Of a stretch of DNA of 64,000 nucleotides, positions 13,384 to 64,000 are shown piece by piece (position 1 is the stretch's first letter; each line of letters opens with the position of its first letter). The stretch lies in NCBI GenBank assembly GCA_904419785.1, contig CAJFSY010000001.1:389078-453077 (forward strand), written 5' to 3'. The position numbers were made by a program, and so were the translations under genes. Below the pieces are notes generated by a model. The model was not told the origin of the DNA. It did no database searches and saw only the letters and a list, made by a program, of their open reading frames with translations. The stretch comes from an uncultured Neglectibacter sp. (GTDB lineage: Bacteria; Bacillota; Clostridia; Oscillospirales; Acutalibacteraceae).

Positions 13384-16300
13384 TTATAACAAATCGTCGT
13401 CGTCACCGCTGCCAAAGTCGAAATCATCATCCTCGTAGCCGTCGTCTTCATCCTCCAGAAGAGGCTCGCCATCCTCGTCTTCCATGGAATAGCCATCCAG
13501 ATCGTCAGCCACATTCTGCTCGTCGAACACGTCGTCATCATGATGGAAGCCCATATCGTCGTCATCGTCGAAGTTCTGTTTCAAGTCGATTTCCTGATTG
13601 TCCTGATCCAGCACCTTCACATCCAGGCCCAAGGACTGCAATTCCTTGATCAGAACCTTGAAGGATTCGGGGATACCGGGCTTGGGAATATTCTGGCCCT
13701 TGACGATAGCCTCATAAGTCTTGACACGGCCCACCACGTCGTCGGACTTCACCGTGAGGATCTCCTGCAAGGTGTAAGCCGCGCCGTAAGCTTCCAGGGC
13801 CCAAACTTCCATTTCGCCGAAACGCTGGCCGCCGAACTGGGCTTTACCGCCCAAAGGCTGCTGGGTAACCAGAGAGTAAGGACCAGTAGAACGCGCGTGA
13901 ATCTTATCGTCAACCAGATGGTGCAGCTTCAAATAGTACATATAACCAACGGTAACGGGATTATCGAAATACTCGCCGGTACGGCCATCGCGCAGACGGA
14001 ACTTGCCATCCTCGTTCAAGCCGGCCATGCGGAAGCATTCCCGGATATCGGCTTCGTGAGCGCCGTCGAACACAGGGGTCATGATCTTCCAGCCCAAAGC
14101 TCTGGCAGCCATGCCCAAGTGGACTTCCAGCACCTGTCCGATATTCATACGGGAAGGCACGCCCAAGGGGTTCAGCACGATATCCAAGGGAGTACCATCC
14201 GGCAGGAAGGGCATCTCCTCTTCCGGAAGGATACGGGAAACAACACCCTTGTTGCCGTGGCGGCCTGCCATCTTATCGCCCACAGAAATCTTACGTTTCT
14301 GAGCGATATAGCAGCGCACCACTTTGTTGACGCCGGGAGAAAGCTCGTCATGGCTGTTCTCTCTGGTGAACACCTTCACGTCCACTACCACGCCATATTC
14401 GCCGTGGGGCACACGCAGAGAAGTGTCACGGACTTCCCGGGCCTTTTCGCCGAAGATGGCGCGCAGCAAGCGCTCTTCCGCGGTAAGCTCGGTTTCGCCC
14501 TTGGGAGTGACCTTGCCCACCAGGATATCGCCGGCACGGACATCCGCGCCAACACGGATGATGCCCCGGTCGTCCAAGTCTTTCAGAAGCTCTTCGTTGA
14601 CATTGGGGATATCCCGAGTGATCTCTTCCGGCCCCAGCTTGGTGTCACGAGCTTCGATCTCATATTCCTCGATGTGAATGGAAGTATACACATCGTTGCG
14701 CACGATTTTTTCGTTCAGAAGGACGGCGTCCTCGTAGTTGTAACCTTCCCAGGTCATAAAGCCGATCAAGGCATTTTTGCCCAAGCTGATCTCGCCGTTC
14801 TTAATGGCGGGGCCGTCGGCAATGACATCGCCCTCTTCCACACGTTCCCCAACGGAAACCACAGGCACCTGGTTGATGCAAGTGCTCTGGTTGGAACGCA
14901 TGAACTTGATGATCTGGTAATCGTCAATATCGCCGTTGTCGGCAGTGACGCGCACCAGGTTTGCGCTGACAGACTTCACCACGCCGGCACGCTTAGCCAG
15001 CACGCACACGCCGGAGTCCACGCCGGCTTTGTATTCCATACCGGTGCCCACCACCGGGCTCTCGGTGCGCAGCAGCGGCACAGCCTGCTTCTGCATGTTG
15101 GAACCCATCAAAGCGCGGTTGGCGTCGTCGTTTTCCAAGAAGGGGATCATGGCTGTAGCCACAGACACTACCATTCGGGGACTGATATCCATGTAGTCAG
15201 CCTGGGAAGCAGGAACTTCCACGAACTCATCCCGGTGACGGCCGACAACTCGGCTGTGGACAAAATGGCCTTCCTCATCCAAAGGCTCATTGGCCTGGGC
15301 CACAATGAAATTGTCCTCCATATCCGCGGTCATGTAGACCACTTCGTTGGTCACGCGGCCGGTTTCCTTATCCACTTTGCGGTAAGGGGACTCGATGAAG
15401 CCATATTCATTGATACGGGCAAACGTAGCCAGATAAGAGATCAAACCGATGTTGGGGCCTTCTGGCGTTTCGATGGGGCACATACGGCCATAGTGAGTAT
15501 AGTGTACGTCACGCACTTCGAAACTGGCCCGGTCACGAGACAGACCGCCGGGGCCCAGAGCGGAAAGACGCCGCTTGTGAGTCAGCTCAGACAAGGGGTT
15601 GGTCTGGTCCATGAACTGGGACAAAGGCGAAGAACCAAAGAACTCTTTGATCGCCGCCACCACAGGCCGGATATTGATCAAGCTGTGGGGAGTCAAAGTC
15701 TCCAGATCCTGCGCTTGCAGGGTCATGCGCTCCCGGATGACGCGCTCCAAACGGGAGAAACCGATGCGGAACTGGTTCTGCAGCAACTCGCCTACAGAAC
15801 GGATACGCCGGTTGCCCAAATGGTCAATATCGTCGGTAACGCCCAAACCTTCGGCCAGGCAGTTCATATAGTTGATGGATGCGAAAATGTCATCCACGGT
15901 GATATGATTGGGGATCAAGTCCGCATAACGGGCGCGAATAGCAGCCTTCAGCTCTTCCTCGCTCTGGGCAGATTCCAAAATCTCCGCCAGGACCCGGTAG
16001 CAAACCCGCTCGTTGATGCCGCACTCGGCCTTGGCGTCGAAATCCACATACTTCTGGATATCCACCATGCCGTTGGAAATGATCTTGACCTCTTTTTCAT
16101 TCAAGGTGACCACTGCCACTGTAACGCCGGCGTCATCCATAGCGTCGGCCAGCTCTTTGGTGACCGTGTCGCCGGCAGCGGCCATCATTTCCCCGGTAGA
16201 GGGGTTGGCCACAGGCTGTGCCAGCACCTGGCCTACCAAACGGCCTTCCAGACGCAGCTTTTTGTTGTATTTGTAACGGCCCACACGAGAAAGATCATAC

Positions 16301-17094
16301 CGGCGGGGATCGAAGAACAAGCCGTTGATATGTGCCTGGGCGCTCTCAATGGTAGGCGGCTCGCTGGGACGCAGTTTGCGGTAGATCTCAAACAGCGCCT
16401 CTTCCATGGTTTTACAGGTATCTTTTTCAATGGTGGCGCGCATCCTATCGTCGTCGCCGAAAAAGTCCAGAATCTCCTGGTCGGTGCCAAGCCCCAGGCA
16501 GCGCACGAACACCGTAATGGGGATCTTCCGGTTTTTATCGATGCGCACATAGAACACATCGTTCACGTCGTTTTCATATTCCAGCCAGGCGCCCCGGTTG
16601 GGGATGATGGTAGAGCTGAACAGCTCCTTGCCGGAGCGGTCGTAGTCCATCTTGTAATACACACCGGGAGAACGCACCAACTGCGAGACAATGACACGCT
16701 CGGCGCCGTTGATGACAAAAGTGCCGCTGGGAGTCATCAGCGGGAAATCTCCCATAAATACTTCCGACTCCTTGATCTCGCCAGTCTCCTTATTGAGCAG
16801 GCGCGCGGTTACCCGTAGTGCAGCCGCGTAAGTGGCGTCTCGCTCCTTGCACTCGGATACGCTGTAATTGGGCTTATCGTCGAGCTTGTAATCTACGAAA
16901 TCGAGCACTAGGTTGTTATTAAAGTCTGTAATGCCTGAGACATCCAAAAAGACCTCTTTCAAGCCCTCTTTCAAGAACCAATCGTAAGAGTTTTTCTGGA
17001 TTTCGATGAGGTTCGGCATTTTCAAGACTTCCTCGATCTTGCCAAAGCTCATTCGAGTATTCTTGCCCAATTGAACCGGTTTCACATTCACCAT
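13384..17094 (-). CDS. rpoB: DNA-directed RNA polymerase subunit beta
   Basis: 1236 residues from [17 protein letters not shown]; the frame stays open 37 codons further, but homology starts here and a GGAGTGG precedes it. It catalyses RNA synthesis with beta'. The rifampicin region reads [16 protein letters not shown]...[12 protein letters not shown], with the usual D, H and S residues, so no classic resistance change is seen. The protein ends in an unusually acidic tail of about 60 residues (many D/E, HHDDD) after the conserved C-terminus. The gene begins its own operon from a strong promoter; rplK-A-J-L is not upstream. Confidence 0.98.
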
Positions 17095-17299
17095 TTGGTT
17101 CAGCCACTCCAATCCTTTTAGTTTTGAATTGCCCGCGGCCCCGCCGTCACCCGGCCGCCGCTTCCCAACTTGATGAGAAAGAGCATTTTCCACAAAAAAA
17201 CACATTTTTTACATTACGCACTTGATTCTTGCGAAACCCTGTGCTATACTTTACAAAAATGTATGAGGGATACTCCTACCCATGATGATGCAGTGTATT

Positions 17300-17328
17300 A
17301 GTATAATGCAAGTTTTTCCTTTTGTCAA
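17300..17328 (-). promoter_or_regulatory. Promoter for rpoBC
   Basis: On the minus strand, a perfect -35 TTGACA (17328-17323), a 17-bp spacer and -10 TATACT (17305-17300). It gives a leader of about 200 bases before rpoB that contains a GC-rich GCGGCC/GGCCGC stem. The stretch 17095-17447 holds only this promoter, the leader and the plus-strand hairpin at 17347. Confidence 0.85.
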
Positions 17329-17346
17329 GTATCTTTTGTAAAGTTT

Positions 17347-17368
17347 CCGCCTTTTCGGCGGTTTTTTT
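17347..17368 (+). terminator. Plus-strand terminator without an obvious upstream gene
   Basis: CCGCC-TTTTC-GGCGG is followed by seven T residues, a compact intrinsic terminator on the plus strand. No plus-strand gene lies just upstream, as rpoB runs the other way. It may insulate the next gene, act as a leader attenuator for it, or end a small RNA. Confidence 0.6.
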
Positions 17369-17447
17369 ATTTTCCAGATCATGTACTCCTCTCTCCCCTA
17401 ATGGTTCGGCTTTTTATATCGCTGAAATTTCCAAAGCAATCTTAAAA

Positions 17448-18137
17448 ATGAAGAAGGCGATCACGCTGTTTCTGCTCTATGGTATTGTTGCGGATTTGCT
17501 GCTTGCTACCCCGCTTCTGACAATCGGTGTGGGTATATCTTTGGCTTTTTCAAGAAACCACAGCATTCTCCGAGGACTAAAGTTCTGCTTCTACATATTG
17601 TTTTCTCTTTGTCTCATCTGGCCGCTTTTTCTTCTAACCATTTGGCTGCTTTTCCCCAGCTACGAGTTTATGATAGGAACGTGGGGAACTGAATTTACTT
17701 TTCAACGTGTGCTCAATGCCCTGGCATTCCTTTGTGGAACGCTGCTGGGAATTTTTCGATTTAGAGAGACAGCTCGGCGCCTTATCCATTGCATTGCCTT
17801 GGGGTCGGTTATCATAGGGCTGGCAGTCTTACTCATTATTTCCAATAGCCTCATCCTTCTTTTAGATGACCGCGATATTTACAGTTTTTCTTCGCCGGAC
17901 AACAGCCATACAATCGCCGTCAGCGAAACCAGCTTTCTGCAAAGCGGAAATGTAACAGTTTACGAGAGGGTTTCCCCCTTCTTTGTCTATTTGAAAGAAA
18001 GCAAAGTAACCGACGACGGTTACAGACCCATTGGCAATAAGGATTATTCAGTTGTGTGGAACAAAAACGACGTCACTGTTTCCTTTGGCAATGGGACGGG
18101 GCAAACAGAGAGCATAACTGTTACCTTTGATGGATAG
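17448..18137 (+). CDS. Hypothetical membrane protein
   Basis: 229 residues if the start is MKKAITLF; the frame is open further upstream but passes through the terminator and promoter region. Four hydrophobic segments lie within the first 145 residues. A roughly 85-residue beta-rich domain follows (YSFSSPDNSHTIAV...DYSVVWNKNDVTVSF), probably extracellular. The tail resembles small domains of unknown function such as DUF5412, but this is a weak impression. No strong ribosome site is visible. The gene is alone, between rpoB (divergent) and a convergent Rrf2 gene. Function unknown. Confidence 0.6.
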   Translation: MKKAITLFLLYGIVADLLLATPLLTIGVGISLAFSRNHSILRGLKFCFYILFSLCLIWPLFLLTIWLLFPSYEFMIGTWGTEFTFQRVLNALAFLCGTLLGIFRFRETARRLIHCIALGSVIIGLAVLLIISNSLILLLDDRDIYSFSSPDNSHTIAVSETSFLQSGNVTVYERVSPFFVYLKESKVTDDGYRPIGNKDYSVVWNKNDVTVSFGNGTGQTESITVTFDG

Positions 18138-18215
18138 AAGCGCTGCACATAAACGGGAAAGCCTGTTTTGTCAATAGCCGCCATCCCATCGCACTTTTTA
18201 CAACAAAAGCGAAAA

Positions 18216-18248
18216 AGCACGGAACACCATGGTTTCCGTGCCTTTTTT
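18216..18248. terminator. Bidirectional terminator
   Basis: Stem GCACGGAA (18217-18224) pairs with TTCCGTGC (18234-18241). Seven T follow on the plus strand and CTTTTT-type bases on the minus strand. It serves the membrane protein gene and the convergent Rrf2 gene, overlapping the latter's stop region. Confidence 0.8.
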
Positions 18249-18679
18249 TATGTTTCTTTTTCGTCCTCACCATCGCAATGGCAAGACGGCTGGGCGCAAA
18301 TCATCGCGAAGGTGTACGAGTCCAACTCACGCCGGACATCTTGGGAAATCTTTTCATAAATGGTGTGCAGGCAGCAATGCTCCCGCCCGCAGCTGTATTC
18401 TTCCTTTTGGCAGCGGCTGAGCATGTATGGCCCTTCTACCAGTTCGATGATCTGCCGCAGGGTGATCTCTTCCGGGGGCTTTGCCAAAGTGTATCCGCCT
18501 TTCGCCCCTTTAAAAGAGCATACAAACCCCTCTGCTACCAGTTCCCGCAAAATTTTCAATGAGAACCGCAGTGGAATCTGGGTCTCTTCCGAAATGCGGC
18601 GGGCATCCCGGCGCTCCGGGTGTTTGGTCAGATACTCTACGATGCGTACCGCGTAATCCGCCTCCAATGTCATTACCAT
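18248..18679 (-). CDS. Rrf2 family transcriptional regulator
   Basis: 143 residues. The winged-helix DNA-binding domain has DYAVRIVEYLTKH at about 8-20 and the conserved KGAKGGYTLAKPPEEITL at about 57-74. Cysteines C90, C97 and C102 (plus C103) fit the three-cysteine iron-sulfur ligand set of IscR/NsrR/RsrR-type members. It may therefore sense iron-sulfur status, redox stress or nitric oxide. Extra C-terminal cysteines occur in PSCHC. The gene stands alone upstream of rpoD, with no isc genes nearby, so the targets are unknown. Confidence 0.88.
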   Translation of the reverse strand: MVMTLEADYAVRIVEYLTKHPERRDARRISEETQIPLRFSLKILRELVAEGFVCSFKGAKGGYTLAKPPEEITLRQIIELVEGPYMLSRCQKEEYSCGREHCCLHTIYEKISQDVRRELDSYTFAMICAQPSCHCDGEDEKET

Positions 18680-42633: not shown

Positions 42634-45165
42634 TTACGCTGTAACAATGGCCTCTGCGCTTTGCAGCTTCAAGAGTTCCACAGCGTTCTCACGCATTTTA
42701 TATTTCAATATCTTGCCGGCGGCGTTCATGGGGAACTGTTCCACAAAGGCCACATAGCGGGGCACTTTGTGTTTCGCCATGTGGGAACGAACATAATCTT
42801 TGATCTCCTCTTCGGAAGAGGTTTCCCCTTCTTTGAGGATCACACAAGCCATGATCTCCTCGCCATATTGCTCATCCGGCACGCCGATCACCTGCACATC
42901 GCGGACCTTGGGATGCGTGTAGATGAAATCCTCGATCTCCTTGGGATAAATGTTCTCGCCGCCGCGGATGATCATATCCTTGATGCGTCCCGTGATCTTA
43001 TAGTTGCCTTCCGGCGTCCGGCGGGCCAGGTCGCCTGTATGGAGCCAGCCTTCTTTATCGATGGCTGCCGCTGTAGCCTCGGGCATCTTATAGTATCCCT
43101 TCATGATGTTGTAACCCTTGGCCACGAACTCGCCGTCCACATTGTCGGGCAGGTCTTCGCCGGTCTCCGGGTCAACGATTTTGCACTCAACGCCAAACAT
43201 AGCGCCACCCACAGTGTTGACGCGAACATCAAGGGAATCAGTAGTCTTAGACATGGTGCAGCCAGGCGAAGCCTCTGTCTGACCGTATGTAATGCAGATC
43301 TCGGACATGTGCATTTTATCCACCACATCCTGCATCACCTTTACCGGACAGGGAGAGCCTGCCATGATACCGGTACGCATATGGGAAAAATCGGTTTTCT
43401 CGAAATCCGGGTGTTCCAGCATGGCGATAAACATGGTGGGCACGCCGTGGAACGCGGTGATCTTTTCCTGGTCGATGCAGTGCAGGCCCTTTTTGGGAGA
43501 AAAAGCCGTAATGGGGCACATAGTCGTGCCGTGGGTCATGGAAGCGGTCATGGCCAGCACCATGCCGAAACAATGGAACATGGGCACCTGAATCATCAGC
43601 TTATCGGCAGTGGAAAGGTCCATGCAGTCACCGATGGCCTTGCCGTTGTTCACCACATTGTAATGGGTAAGCATAACGCCCTTGGGGAAACCGGTGGTTC
43701 CAGAAGTATACTGCATATTGCACACATCGTCTTTATGGATGTGACGGCGGCGGTTCTCCACCTCGGTGGGAGGAACAGAATCGCCCAAACCCATGGCATG
43801 TTCCCAAGTGTAGCAGCCTTTCTGCTGACTGTCAATGGTGATGATGTTCCGAAGCACCGGCAGCCGCTTGCTGTGAAGTTTGCCGGGCAAGCTGTCTTGC
43901 AGTTCGGGGCAAAGCTCTTTCATGATCCCCACATAATCGGAGTCTTTGAAACCGTCGATCATCACCAGCGTATGAGTGTCCGACTGGCGCAGCAAATATT
44001 CTGCCTCGTGGATCTTATAAGCGGTATTCACCGTAACCAGCACCGCGCCGATCTTGGTAGTGGCCCAGAAGGTGATATACCACTGGGGCACGTTGGTGGC
44101 CCAAATGGCTACGTGGTCCCCTTTCTTCACGCCCATAGCGATAAGCGCACGGGCAAACTGGTCCACGTCATCCCGGAACTCGGAATAAGTACGGGTATAA
44201 TCCAGTTCTGTATAGCGGAAGCAAAGCTGGTCCGGGAACTCCTTGACCATGCGGTCCAACACATCGGGGAACGTGGCGTCGATCAAAGTCTCTTTGGGCC
44301 AGACATACTTTCCAGTATGGGTCCGGTTATCTTGAAGTTCTCCCTCTTTCATGGAAAGGCCGGAGAAATAGTCGTTCATGTAATTGGCAAACTGTGGGAA
44401 CACCACGCCGGCGTCGGAAAGCTCTTCCGCCCAGCGCTTCACCCATTCCAGGGAGATATAACCGTCATAGCCTATATCCACCAGCGCATCCAGCATTTCG
44501 GGGATGGGCAGGTCGCCCTCGCCCATCATGCGGTACTCCACCTTGCCGTCTTTCATGACGCTGTCTTTTACGTGTACATACTTGATATACGAACCCAAGT
44601 GGCTCACTGTTTCACGGGGAGATTCCCCACCGTAACGGTAAGGATGGTGCATATCCCACAGCGCGGCCACAGAAGGCATATTCACTTTGTCCAACAGAGA
44701 ACGCAGCCGCCGGGTATCACAATAGACACCGTTGGTTTCCACCAGCAGACACACGCCAAAGCCTTGAGCGATGGTGCCCAGAAGCTTTAACGCTTCCGCA
44801 ACGAAATCGTCATCCACTTCCCCTTCCGGCCGGGGATACCGGTCACCCAGCACCCGAATAAAGGGGGTTTGAAGCTTTTTAGCAAGCACGATATACTGGG
44901 TGATCTCTGAAATGTTCTTGTCGAAGTCTTCCTTGTATTTCAGACCACAGCCGGATGCCAGGCAGGGAATCTCTAGCCCTAGGGAGCGCAGCTTTTCCAG
45001 GGTCTTAGGCAGCTGGGCATCGGTAAAGGGGCTGGCATTCACGGCAAAGATTTCTTCCCCTAGCCCGCGAACCTCAATACCACCAAAGCCTAGGTCTTTC
45101 GCCATGGAGTAAATATCGGTCCAGGTAAAATCAGGACAAGCCAGGGTTGAAAAACTGATCTTCAT
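42634..45165 (-). CDS. Fusion of sugar-phosphate epimerase-like TIM barrel and acyl-CoA ligase
   Basis: 843 residues from MKISFSTLAC; GAGGTGG precedes the ATG, and the longer frame crosses the promoter. Residues about 1-270 are an AP-endonuclease-2/xylose-isomerase-like TIM barrel that keeps its metal ligands: E143 (LLVETNG), D171 and H173/H174 (LWDMHHP), H198 (YVHVKD), E240 (SLEW). Residues about 285-843 are an AMP-binding acyl-CoA ligase with YTSGTTGFPKG (486-496), YGQTE (627-631), HTGD (709-712) and the catalytic lysine K818 (NAAGKIL). Both halves look active and there is no frame break. The joint substrate is unknown. It lies downstream of purD with its own promoter. Confidence 0.9.
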   Translation of the reverse strand: MKISFSTLACPDFTWTDIYSMAKDLGFGGIEVRGLGEEIFAVNASPFTDAQLPKTLEKLRSLGLEIPCLASGCGLKYKEDFDKNISEITQYIVLAKKLQTPFIRVLGDRYPRPEGEVDDDFVAEALKLLGTIAQGFGVCLLVETNGVYCDTRRLRSLLDKVNMPSVAALWDMHHPYRYGGESPRETVSHLGSYIKYVHVKDSVMKDGKVEYRMMGEGDLPIPEMLDALVDIGYDGYISLEWVKRWAEELSDAGVVFPQFANYMNDYFSGLSMKEGELQDNRTHTGKYVWPKETLIDATFPDVLDRMVKEFPDQLCFRYTELDYTRTYSEFRDDVDQFARALIAMGVKKGDHVAIWATNVPQWYITFWATTKIGAVLVTVNTAYKIHEAEYLLRQSDTHTLVMIDGFKDSDYVGIMKELCPELQDSLPGKLHSKRLPVLRNIITIDSQQKGCYTWEHAMGLGDSVPPTEVENRRRHIHKDDVCNMQYTSGTTGFPKGVMLTHYNVVNNGKAIGDCMDLSTADKLMIQVPMFHCFGMVLAMTASMTHGTTMCPITAFSPKKGLHCIDQEKITAFHGVPTMFIAMLEHPDFEKTDFSHMRTGIMAGSPCPVKVMQDVVDKMHMSEICITYGQTEASPGCTMSKTTDSLDVRVNTVGGAMFGVECKIVDPETGEDLPDNVDGEFVAKGYNIMKGYYKMPEATAAAIDKEGWLHTGDLARRTPEGNYKITGRIKDMIIRGGENIYPKEIEDFIYTHPKVRDVQVIGVPDEQYGEEIMACVILKEGETSSEEEIKDYVRSHMAKHKVPRYVAFVEQFPMNAAGKILKYKMRENAVELLKLQSAEAIVTA

Positions 45166-45204
45166 ACAAATATCCACCTCGTCTTTTTGATAGTATGTTG
45201 TATT

Positions 45205-45242
45205 ATTATACAGCGCCCCCTGGCGTAAAGCAAGGGGGCGCT
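45205..45242 (-). promoter_or_regulatory. Promoter embedded in a hairpin, upstream of the fusion gene
   Basis: On the minus strand, -35 TTGCTT (45233-45228), a 17-bp spacer and -10 TATAAT (45210-45205). A perfect 10-bp inverted repeat, AGCGCCCCCT/AGGGGGCGCT (45212-45221 and 45233-45242), encloses the -35. No T-run follows, so it is not a standard terminator of purD. It may be an operator. Confidence 0.65.
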
Positions 45243-45282
45243 GCAATTTTTTGATTTAATCCGTCATTTTTTTGAAAAAGCG

Positions 45283-60751: not shown

Positions 60752-61392
60752 ATGAAATCTATTTTCCCAGTTGCAACTTTAACAAAGCCAGTCCCGAAGC
60801 CGCAAAAAGGCTGCGTTCTTATTTGAAAGAGAAAATGCCGGTAGCCGGATGCTGCCGTTATGATAAAACTCCTTGGGAAACCGGCTCCATTGGGCTCTAT
60901 TTTTGCCAAGCTTGCCGGGAGACTTTGGAATCCAACCCAGATAACGTATTGCTGCCGGAAAACCTGTTTGTCTGGTTAGACCGCCAAACTGATTTTCCCT
61001 GGCCGGACTACCACGGCTTAGTGGTAAACGTTCAGGACTGTTGGCGTGATCGAGCACATCCTGAGATTTTTGACGCGGTTCGCTCCACGCTTAAAAAAAT
61101 GGGGGTAACCATTCTGGAATTGGAAGAAAATCGCGAAAAATCAACATTTTGCGGAAATCTCCACTTTGAGCCCAAACGTCCGGAAAACATAGATTTTCTT
61201 GCCAAACATCCCGGAATGCCACTGTACCAATTTTCAGAAGAAGAGCAAAGACGGCTCATGGCAGAACAAGTTGAAACCTATACAGCCCCCCTAACGGTAA
61301 CTTACTGCAACAGATGTACCTCAGGGATTATTCTTGGGGGAGGCAAGGGCGTTCATTTAATGGAATTATGTATGGGGACCTTTTCAGACTAA
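60748..61392 (+). CDS. CCG-domain-like cysteine-rich protein
   Basis: 214 residues. The N-terminus has PSC9 followed by G-C35-C36 and C53-x2-C56, the C/CC/CxxC layout of the CCG domain in heterodisulfide-reductase HdrB and related iron-sulfur proteins, though with shorter spacings than the standard consensus. It may bind a [4Fe-4S] cluster. A later CNRCTSGIILGG adds another CxxC. The rest is not recognised. It is translationally coupled to the Nudix gene, so both probably serve one pathway; which is unknown. Confidence in the domain is moderate. Confidence 0.55.
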   Translation: MNEIYFPSCNFNKASPEAAKRLRSYLKEKMPVAGCCRYDKTPWETGSIGLYFCQACRETLESNPDNVLLPENLFVWLDRQTDFPWPDYHGLVVNVQDCWRDRAHPEIFDAVRSTLKKMGVTILELEENREKSTFCGNLHFEPKRPENIDFLAKHPGMPLYQFSEEEQRRLMAEQVETYTAPLTVTYCNRCTSGIILGGGKGVHLMELCMGTFSD

Positions 61393-61415
61393 CTCTCTCA
61401 ATTTAGAGAATTTTC

Positions 61416-61443
61416 TTGACTTTTCCGGGATTCATGCTATAAT
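61416..61443 (+). promoter_or_regulatory. Promoter for rpsF-ssb-rpsR
   Basis: -35 TTGACT at 61416-61421 and extended -10 TGC-TATAAT (hexamer 61438-61443), with a 16-bp spacer. It gives a leader of about 85 bases. Confidence 0.8.
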
Positions 61444-61449
61444 ATTACC

Positions 61450-61525
61450 CGTTGATTTTCGTTAGTTTCTAACGATTTTTCATCCTTGCTCCGCGACAAA
61501 TCAACTGCGCGGGGCCAAAAGACCA
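61450..61525 (+). promoter_or_regulatory. rpsF leader, possible S6:S18 autoregulatory RNA
   Basis: A small stem CGTTAG/CTAACG with a T-run sits at about 61459-61478, and a second stem around CCGCG/CGCGG is at about 61492-61514. Firmicutes and other bacteria control this operon by S6-S18 binding to a leader stem with a CCG motif. The match here is suggestive only. Confidence 0.35.
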
Positions 61526-61842
61526 AAAGGAGGTGCAATACAAATACTGTTGAAAGTGTTGACGATTGGGGGAAGCGCCGCTTCGCCTATCCCATCCAGA
61601 AGCAGACCGAGGGTTACTACACCCTGATCAACTTCGAGAGCAATCCGGAGTTTACCGCCGAGCTGGACAGACGGTATCAGATCACTGATGGCATCCTGCG
61701 CACGATCATCATCAAGCGGGACCCCCGTCATGTGAATGCTGTGAAGGCTCAGAAAGCCCAGAAGGCTGAAGAGAACAACATCGATGTGGAAGCAATCGCC
61801 GTGGAAGCTGTTGAGGCTCCCGCCGCGGAATCCGCAGAGTGA
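61526..61842 (+). pseudogene. rpsF: Ribosomal protein S6, N-terminus missing
   Basis: The ribosome site AAAGGAGG at 61526-61533 is perfect, but no start codon follows in the S6 frame. From about 61546 the frame reads TVESVDDWGKRRFAYPIQ and continues with normal S6 (EGYYTLINF, ITDGILRTIIIKRD, then an acidic-alanine tail). The first 35 or so residues (MxxYE...VFKxLI) that form strand 1 and helix 1 are absent. The longer open frame begins with a TTG at 61486 and reads through the ribosome site, which is unlikely to be a real start. An internal deletion of about 100 bases or an assembly error explains this. ssb and rpsR follow normally. Confidence 0.85.
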
Positions 61843-61868
61843 TCTTACGGAAAGCGAGTGCTTAAAAA

Positions 61869-62354
61869 ATGCTGAATGTTGCCGCTATTGTGGGAAGGCT
61901 CGCCGCCGACCCAGAATTGAGACACACCCCTTCCGGCGTGGCTGTAACATCCTTTACATTGGCTGTTGACCGCAGCTATGCCAAGGCCGGTACGGAACGT
62001 CAAACCGACTGGATTGATGTGGTGGCCTGGAGATCTACCGCAGAGTTTATCTGCAAATACTTCACCAAAGGCCAGATGATGGCGGTTACCGGCTCTCTGC
62101 AAACCAGGAGCTACGAGGACCGCAACGGCAGCAAGCGCAAGGCCATGGAGATCGTGGCCAACGACGTGAGCTTTGTGGGCTCTAAGCGGGAAAATGGTTC
62201 CGTTGGCGGAGATTATGGCCAGGCATACGGTCAGCCATCCTCCCCCGCCCCCCAGCAGCGTCCTGCCGCGTTCAGCGAGCCTGCTCCCGCTTATTCCAGC
62301 GGAAGCAGTGAGGATTTTGAAGAGATCCTGGGGGACGACGATCTCCCCTTCTGA
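61869..62354 (+). CDS. ssb: Single-stranded DNA-binding protein
   Basis: 161 residues. The OB-fold is intact: MLNVAAIVGRLAADPELRHTPSG, FTLAVDRSY, TDWIDVVAWRSTAEFICKY, GSLQTRSYEDRNGSKRKAMEIVANDVSF. A flexible glutamine/proline/serine-rich linker leads to the acidic DDDLPF tip that binds partner proteins. It coats single-stranded DNA in replication and repair. It lies between rpsF and rpsR, the conserved order. The ribosome site is weak. Confidence 0.97.
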   Translation: MLNVAAIVGRLAADPELRHTPSGVAVTSFTLAVDRSYAKAGTERQTDWIDVVAWRSTAEFICKYFTKGQMMAVTGSLQTRSYEDRNGSKRKAMEIVANDVSFVGSKRENGSVGGDYGQAYGQPSSPAPQQRPAAFSEPAPAYSSGSSEDFEEILGDDDLPF

Positions 62355-62411
62355 TGGCTTTCACCGGAAGAAAACCTCTTCACCTATATTTTGTAAAGGA
62401 GGCTTTTTGGC

Positions 62412-62663
62412 ATGGCAGATAGACCCGAAAGAGAAGTCCGCCGCGGCGGGCGTAAGGGACGCAAAAAGGTGTGCAGCTTCTGCGTAGACAGAGCTGAGTT
62501 CATCGATTACAAGGACGTGGCCAAGCTGCGCCGTTTCATCTCCGAGAGAGGTAAGATCCTCCCCCGCCGTGTGACCGGCACCTGCGCGTATCATCAGCGC
62601 GCTCTGACTGTGGCTATCAAGCGCGCACGTCATCTGGCGCTGCTCCCCTACACTTCTGACTGA
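62412..62663 (+). CDS. rpsR: 30S ribosomal protein S18
   Basis: 83 residues: [66 protein letters not shown] is the complete family pattern. CSFC and a later C could bind zinc (C+ type). S18 pairs with S6 in the 30S platform. AAAGGAGG precedes the ATG. A terminator follows. Confidence 0.97.
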
Positions 62664-62680
62664 TTTGTGAGAATGTATTC

Positions 62681-62719
62681 GAGACTTTTCGCTTCGGCGG
62701 AAAGTCTCTTTTCTCTTTT
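62681..62719 (+). terminator. Terminator of the rpsF-ssb-rpsR operon
   Basis: Stem GAGACTTT (62681-62688) with AAAGTCTC (62701-62708), extended by TCGC/GGCGG bases, followed by TTTTCTCTTTT. Confidence 0.85.
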
Positions 62720-62737
62720 ACCCAGAAAGGAACCACT

Positions 62738-63538
62738 ATGAAATACTTTGATACACACATTCACTTTTTTCCGGATAAGCTGGCAGGAAAGGCCCTTCCC
62801 CATCTCCATGATATTTGCCACTGTCCCTACTATAGCGACGGCACACGAGCCGGCACCTTGAAAAACTTAGAAGACTGGGGATGCGTTGGCGGCATGGCTC
62901 TGCACATCACCACAAACGCCCATCAGCAGACTTCGGTAAACAACTTTGCCAAGGAATCTCAACACGATAACATTTATTGCTTTGGCAGCGTGTATCCCTT
63001 TGCGGAAAACGCTGTGGAAGAGATCCATCGAGTCAAAGAAATGGGGCTCTATGGGTTAAAACTTCACCCTGATTATCAGGAATTCTTCATTGGCGACGAA
63101 GCCGCAATGCCCATTTACGCTGAGGCTGAAAAACTTGGTATGGTCCTCGCTTTCCATACCGGCCGGGACCCTTACTCCCCCAATCTGGTGCATTGCCCGC
63201 CGGATGTCTTAGGGAAGATCGCGGATTTATTCCCAAAGCTGACCATCATAGCAGCCCACATGGGCGGCATGGACATGCCTCAAGAAGCGGCAAAGCATTT
63301 AGCCGGAAAGAAAAACGTCTATTTTGATACGGCTTTTGCTTCTCATTTTCTCAATCCCAAAGAATTTGAAGAACTGGTCCACTTGCACGGCACCGACAAA
63401 GTATTATTCGCCACAGATTGCCCCTGGAGCACTCTTCCCGCTGAAAAGGCGCTTTTAGACGCCGCTGGGCTGACTGGTTCCGAACGGGAACAGATCGCTT
63501 ATAAAAACGCGGAAAAGCTTTTCGGCATCACTGTTTGA
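62738..63538 (+). CDS. Amidohydrolase-family TIM-barrel hydrolase
   Basis: 266 residues. YFDTHIHFFPDKLAGKALP at the start carries the HxH metal pair, LKLHPDYQEFFIGDE and IIAAHMGGMDMPQEA carry further ligands, and LFATDCPWST carries the late D. This pattern fits the amidohydrolase-2/metal-dependent TIM-barrel group. The substrate is not identifiable. AGAAAGGAA precedes the ATG. It follows rpsR behind a terminator. Confidence 0.88.
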   Translation: MKYFDTHIHFFPDKLAGKALPHLHDICHCPYYSDGTRAGTLKNLEDWGCVGGMALHITTNAHQQTSVNNFAKESQHDNIYCFGSVYPFAENAVEEIHRVKEMGLYGLKLHPDYQEFFIGDEAAMPIYAEAEKLGMVLAFHTGRDPYSPNLVHCPPDVLGKIADLFPKLTIIAAHMGGMDMPQEAAKHLAGKKNVYFDTAFASHFLNPKEFEELVHLHGTDKVLFATDCPWSTLPAEKALLDAAGLTGSEREQIAYKNAEKLFGITV

Positions 63539-63596
63539 CTTTTTCCTCGAAACCGGGTAGAATAAGAGAAACTCTCCCGTGAAAAGGAGCACTATC

Positions 63597-64000
63597 ATGA
63601 AAAAAGCCATTTCTTTGTTGCTTGCCACCGCTTTGTGCGCTTTTTGTACCGGATGTTCCCAGCCGGACTCTCTCACGTTGGATCTTTCCCAGGGATATGG
63701 TGAGCACGTAAAGTTACTCCATGTAAACGCCAGCACTGCTGAAAAGGAAGAACGCTTGGCGGCTTTCGCCCAAGTGTTGGAAGAAGCCGACCCACTGGAC
63801 AAAGATTTTTCGCTGTTCGCCTACTATCCTGACTATTTTCTGGAACTGCAGGACAATGGAAAACATTCCGCGGCAGTAGTAGACGTAAACGGGGAATTTG
63901 TGGATTTCTACTATTTAGGAGAAGATGTGGCCGAGACTCCTCAGCTGTACCGTTCCCATACAACAGCAGACGAATTTCGCAAGCTGGTTCACTGGAAATA
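63597..64000 (+). CDS. Putative lipoprotein, C-terminus at window edge
   Basis: 134 codons visible. AAAAGGAG precedes the ATG. A signal peptide MKKAISLLLATALCAF leads to a lipobox-like CTGC with cysteine at about residue 20, so it is probably a membrane lipoprotein. The mature part has no recognised domain. The window ends with the codon AAA and then TA, which may be the start of a TAA or TAG stop, so the protein may be almost complete. The end is not certain. Confidence 0.7.
   Translation, partial: MKKAISLLLATALCAFCTGCSQPDSLTLDLSQGYGEHVKLLHVNASTAEKEERLAAFAQVLEEADPLDKDFSLFAYYPDYFLELQDNGKHSAAVVDVNGEFVDFYYLGEDVAETPQLYRSHTTADEFRKLVHWK

Follow-up and report, generated by a model that had tools for sequence, protein, structure and literature searches.

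S6 knockouts of some bacteria are viable, and laboratory rpsF null alleles are expected to give no S6 protein. In Firmicutes, the gene for bS6 is found in an rpsF-ssb-rpsR operon. Passages of two published sources describe a leader RNA of the rpsF mRNA that binds S6:S18 (PMC10931766, PMC4647458); the review of the two also gives a bulged CCG bound by S18. In C. difficile, 52 of the 55 annotated ribosomal proteins were scored as essential, and the passages concerned do not name the other three (PMC12548448). A literature search for ribosomal proteins of Neglectibacter or Acutalibacter returned no papers.

The operon described here lies in a 64,000-nucleotide stretch of DNA (the window; G000:C1:389078-453077) from a 2.23 Mb draft genome that consists of 38 contigs and is 98.34% complete. 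The evidence base is the assembled sequence of one genome of the species. The near relatives of this genome are Neglectibacter- and Acutalibacter-type Clostridia, several of them from gut samples, and the nearest, G013 (contig G013:C42), was used as the reference for the deletion, codon, and fold comparisons. The closest locus is L032 (CALWCD010000042.1, uncultured Clostridia bacterium isolate BRZ_AG__bin39), whose S6 translation is the same as that of L003.

From residue 39 on, the protein encoded by the window copy of rpsF is like that of the Firmicutes operon, and so are the gene order, promoter, leader, and ribosome site; the window copy has no start codon and no residues 1-38. The missing piece, its edges, the lack of another S6 gene in the assembly, and the intact leader and neighboring genes are the basis for the likeliest reading, to which a probability of about 0.5 is assigned, that the sequenced strain lost the function of the one rpsF gene known in it through a single deletion of 112 bases. 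The expected outcome is that of the laboratory null alleles; unlike those alleles, the present case is a putative one that comes from a draft genome.

Organization of the rpsF Locus

The features of the locus are collected in Table 1. The rpsF remnant was matched by TIGR00166 with 64.0 bits (cut-off 42.9) over profile positions 36-94 of 95, and by PF01250 with 74.6 bits (cut-off 27) over positions 32-90 of 90; positions 1-35 and 1-31, respectively, are missing. The remnant thus scores above the curated cut-off for bS6 and is found in an operon with ssb and rpsR, but it lacks the full fold from strand 1 to strand 4 and has no start codon close enough to the ribosome site to be used. The promoter aligns with similar sites in most of 20 relatives, as judged by eye in a multiple alignment. 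A preliminary description of this DNA had called the ribosome site perfect and the promoter, ssb, and rpsR normal. The presence of AAAGGAGG, together with the consensus and profile matches and an S18 protein identical to that of G013, bears this out.

Table 1. Coordinates of Features at the rpsF Locus in the Window
Feature	Position	Strand	Evidence or remark
Sigma-70-type promoter of rpsF-ssb-rpsR, TTGACT-16 nt-TG-TATAAT	61416..61443	+	11/12 consensus matches
Predicted leader hairpin; TCCTT (61483-61487) pairs with AAGGA (61527-61531) of the ribosome site, inner stem between	61483..61531	+	fold, covariation
Shine-Dalgarno sequence AAAGGAGG, intact	61526..61533	+	same place in relatives
Deletion junction, 112 bases absent relative to G013	61545..61546	+	BLASTN and multiple alignment; placed to within one base
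rpsF remnant, codon 39 to stop (strand 2 onward and acidic tail), startless	61546..61842	+	TIGR00166, PF01250
ssb, intact	61869..62354	+	TIGR00621 over profile 3-165 of 165
rpsR (S18), intact	62412..62663	+	83/83 residues identical to G013

The S6 frame here reads AGG TGC AAT ACA AAT ACT GTT GAA and, beyond the ribosome site, resumes at codon 39 with no start. The earliest in-frame ATG, GTG, or TTG 3' of the ribosome site is a GTG at 61732. Six canonical or near-cognate codons (ATA, CTG, TTG, and GTG types) are present at 61534-61559, all of them in the +1 frame, which reaches a stop at 61625. The earlier statement that no in-frame start occurs at a usable distance therefore holds.

Extent and Edges of the Missing Segment

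In a BLASTN comparison with contig G013:C42, window positions 61407-61545 correspond to 15924-16063 and positions 61545-63992 to 16175-18623, so that the two pieces meet at 61545. The additional DNA in G013 amounts to 112 bases at 16064-16175 (the placement may shift left by one base) within otherwise collinear DNA, and no extra DNA is found at the junction in this comparison. The lost segment extends from the third base of the ATG start codon through the end of codon 38 and encodes residues 1-38. An alignment of rpsF from close relatives, a check that had been proposed with the preliminary description, revealed the segment in 20 of 20 relatives and its absence here. The original estimate of about 100 missing bases was close to the mark; that of about 35 lost residues was too low.

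The edges of the deletion share one base (T) when the G013 sequence stands in for that of the species before the deletion. Slippage between short AAT repeats, as initially suggested, was considered and rejected: the idea is unsupported because codon 38, at the downstream edge, encodes glycine (GGT, GGC, or GGG) in all 20 aligned relatives and because only the single T is shared with the nearest of them. The junction is internal to contig C1, at approximately base 450,620. Its exact sequence had 0 matches in viral contigs, as expected for a chromosomal gene.

The S6 of G013 was modeled with AlphaFold2 from a 38-row alignment that included the window remnant (mean pLDDT 80.8, pTM 0.66, and 93-96 for residues 11-90). 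The predicted elements are E6-15, H16-37, E38-55, E58-70, H72-84, and E88-95. On this model, the deletion removes strand 1, helix 1, and one residue of strand 2, and because strand 1 and helix 1 are lost, the remaining part is unlikely to fold as S6.

The 97 codons of the remnant were compared with those of G013: 82 are identical, 13 differ synonymously, and 2 differ nonsynonymously (95/97 residues identical). For rpsR, the corresponding numbers are 69, 14, and 0. Under a simple neutral model, approximately 45 nonsynonymous changes would be expected in an unconstrained remnant over the whole path, compared with the 2 seen (upper limit 7.2). The time without constraint is thereby bounded to roughly 16% of the path that separates the remnant from G013, a rough figure because synonymous change may be held down by codon bias. 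The undecayed remnant and the unchanged S18 protein therefore point to a deletion that is very recent, or absent from the organism itself.

S6 in the Genome and Its Relatives

The possibility of a full rpsF elsewhere in the genome, raised at the outset, was pursued in the assembly, and no second S6 gene was found; the PF01250 profile matched S6 once, lacking profile positions 1-31. A search of the genome for the N-terminal piece of S6 elsewhere gave 0 places, and the same search was positive in three of three control genomes.

The PF01250 survey covered 395 genomes of the order that are at least 90% complete, the window genome included, and was judged on the best E-value per genome rather than on the coordinates of each match, a resolution at which small internal cuts elsewhere would be missed. 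S6 was matched in 383 of them. The weakest best E-value belongs to the window genome (1.2e-20), followed by G093 (5.8e-21), whose S6 gene is cut by a contig end and starts at base 5; the other 381 genomes gave 3.1e-24 or better. By these per-genome scores, two S6 genes look cut among the 383, and no other disrupted rpsF was found in the order. The 12 genomes silent for S6 look like assembly gaps, because 11 of them also lack S18 and in the remaining one the S18 match begins at base 382 of a contig. Loss of rpsF as a general trend in the order was rejected on the same observations, together with the position of the G093 gene at a contig end.

Within the genus, S6 was matched in 25 of 28 genomes, and the translations of all 25 include the N-terminal part. 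The three genomes with no match are 82, 63, and 60% complete. One genome searched for S18 in addition to the 12 silent ones, G003 (82% complete), gave no S18 match either. Among the matches listed, an N-terminal part homologous to MAEGKNLYETVIVTSAKLGEEGSAELVNKFKALIAEHG (by eye) is present in at least 77 rows of relatives, the three rows of the window itself not counted; many rows of that listing are one species present in two collections.

Leader RNA of rpsF

The leader at 61483-61531 is common to many Clostridia. Its predicted fold has a z score of -2.41, with 2 of 200 shuffles as good. The window leader was aligned with 57 of 66 listed leaders (omitting L025, L026, L079, and L096-L101); outside the 66 are 15 loci in minus orientation, 19 loci that lack the motifs used in the search, and exact duplicates. 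In the resulting 58 leaders, pairing extends to 90.3% of 743 cells (shuffles, 81.4; 0/500), two-sided changes occur in 70 cells (21.8 in shuffles, 0/500), and the covariation score is 0.279 (0.132 shuffled, 0/500 as high). Two measures are weaker: a count of 6 pairs with two-sided changes was also attained in 23 of 500 shuffles and in three of the six slid versions, and two slid versions equaled the observed number of pair types. The leaders were chosen by their TCCTTG and GGAGG motifs, and this selection accounts in part for the 100% pairing seen in the outer helix. The covariation support therefore applies to the inner stem, to which all six pairs with two-sided changes belong. A compensating C-G/G-C exchange distinguishes the window leader from that of G013.

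This is where the S6:S18 autoregulatory motif described in passages of PMC10931766 and PMC4647458 would be expected, and the leader is a candidate for it. It resembles that motif as a structured RNA directly 5' of rpsF, here predicted to pair with the ribosome site. It differs in that the Rfam search of 61380-62760 (E up to 1) found nothing. The predicted inner stem includes a CCG, which may or may not be the counterpart of the bulged CCG bound by S18. A small terminator-like hairpin followed by a T-run is present at 61459-61475, between the promoter and the leader; several relatives carry a different hairpin-like sequence at this place, as judged by eye in the alignment.

Possible Origin and Consequences of the Deletion

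The sequence data cannot separate a real mutation at the level of the strain from an artefact. In the latter case the organism would have a normal rpsF, the 112 bases having dropped out during assembly, gap closing, scaffolding, or consensus calling, or a minority haplotype with the deletion having been taken for the assembly. Such an artefact is a serious contender that falls somewhat short of an even chance. It accords with the 38-contig draft state of the assembly, with the retained leader and ribosome site, and with the window copy being, by per-genome scores, the sole S6 gene in the 383 genomes with S6 that is cut at a place other than a contig end. The undecayed remnant and the unchanged S18, on neither of which relaxed selection is seen, fit an artefact equally well, and these points, with no other disrupted rpsF found in the order, weigh against a real deletion. 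However, a repeat-driven misjoin is unlikely given edges that share a single base, which should be too little to mislead a k-mer assembler, and the genes neighboring rpsF align well to G013. The assembly does not appear to be generally torn in the window, because 7 of 10 other window proteins scanned (rpoD, dnaG, M18 aminopeptidase, cdaA, ispDF, purD, and AICAR formyltransferase) cover nearly the entire family profile or domain model; of the remaining three, two carry additional or fused parts and one has no family match at E up to 1e-30.

Production of a shortened, working S6 is improbable. In its favor, a mechanical 118-residue frame opens at an in-frame TTG at 61486 and continues to 61842, and the remnant has no nonsense mutation and almost no amino acid change. 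Against this, the TTG is part of the leader hairpin and, by eye, is not preceded by a separate ribosome site, no in-frame start follows the ribosome site until 61732 and the near-cognate codons there are all in the +1 frame, and a product without strand 1 and helix 1 is unlikely to fold as S6. An old and stable loss of S6 in the lineage, compensated elsewhere, is hardly credible: nothing beyond the missing part of the gene was found to suggest it, the remnant has not decayed, S18 is identical to that of G013, and the N-terminal part is retained in all 25 matched genomes of the 28 searched in the genus. It is also unlikely, if less so than either of these, that a natural population, and not one sequenced clone alone, stably carries the deletion, as a gut Clostridium with S6-less ribosomes (or an N-terminally cut S6 made from a non-standard start) and with the feedback of the S6-SSB-S18 operon lost.

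If a strain-level deletion is assumed, it would be very recent and would have arisen by end-joining or by slippage with almost no homology. Transcription would still initiate, and ribosomes may bind the ribosome site; with the adjacent start-like codons out of frame, no S6 would be produced, and the strain would live with S6-less ribosomes. S18 and SSB, which have separate starts on this mRNA, would be made from these, and the leader would no longer be subject to S6:S18 feedback. Confirmation by reads would establish a natural S6-null strain in a group with no other disrupted rpsF found, useful for asking what the role of S6 is. As it stands, the locus is a warning that gene losses seen in single draft genomes need reads.

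Additional Features of the Window

Two further open reading frames on the minus strand were noted. The 541-residue frame at 28594-30219 matches threonylcarbamoyladenylate synthase (residues 14-206) and dephospho-CoA kinase (residues 343-516) and is an apparent fusion. The frame at 42634-45246 encodes an acyl-CoA ligase, of which approximately the first 317 residues are uncovered by the best 25 of 74 matching families.
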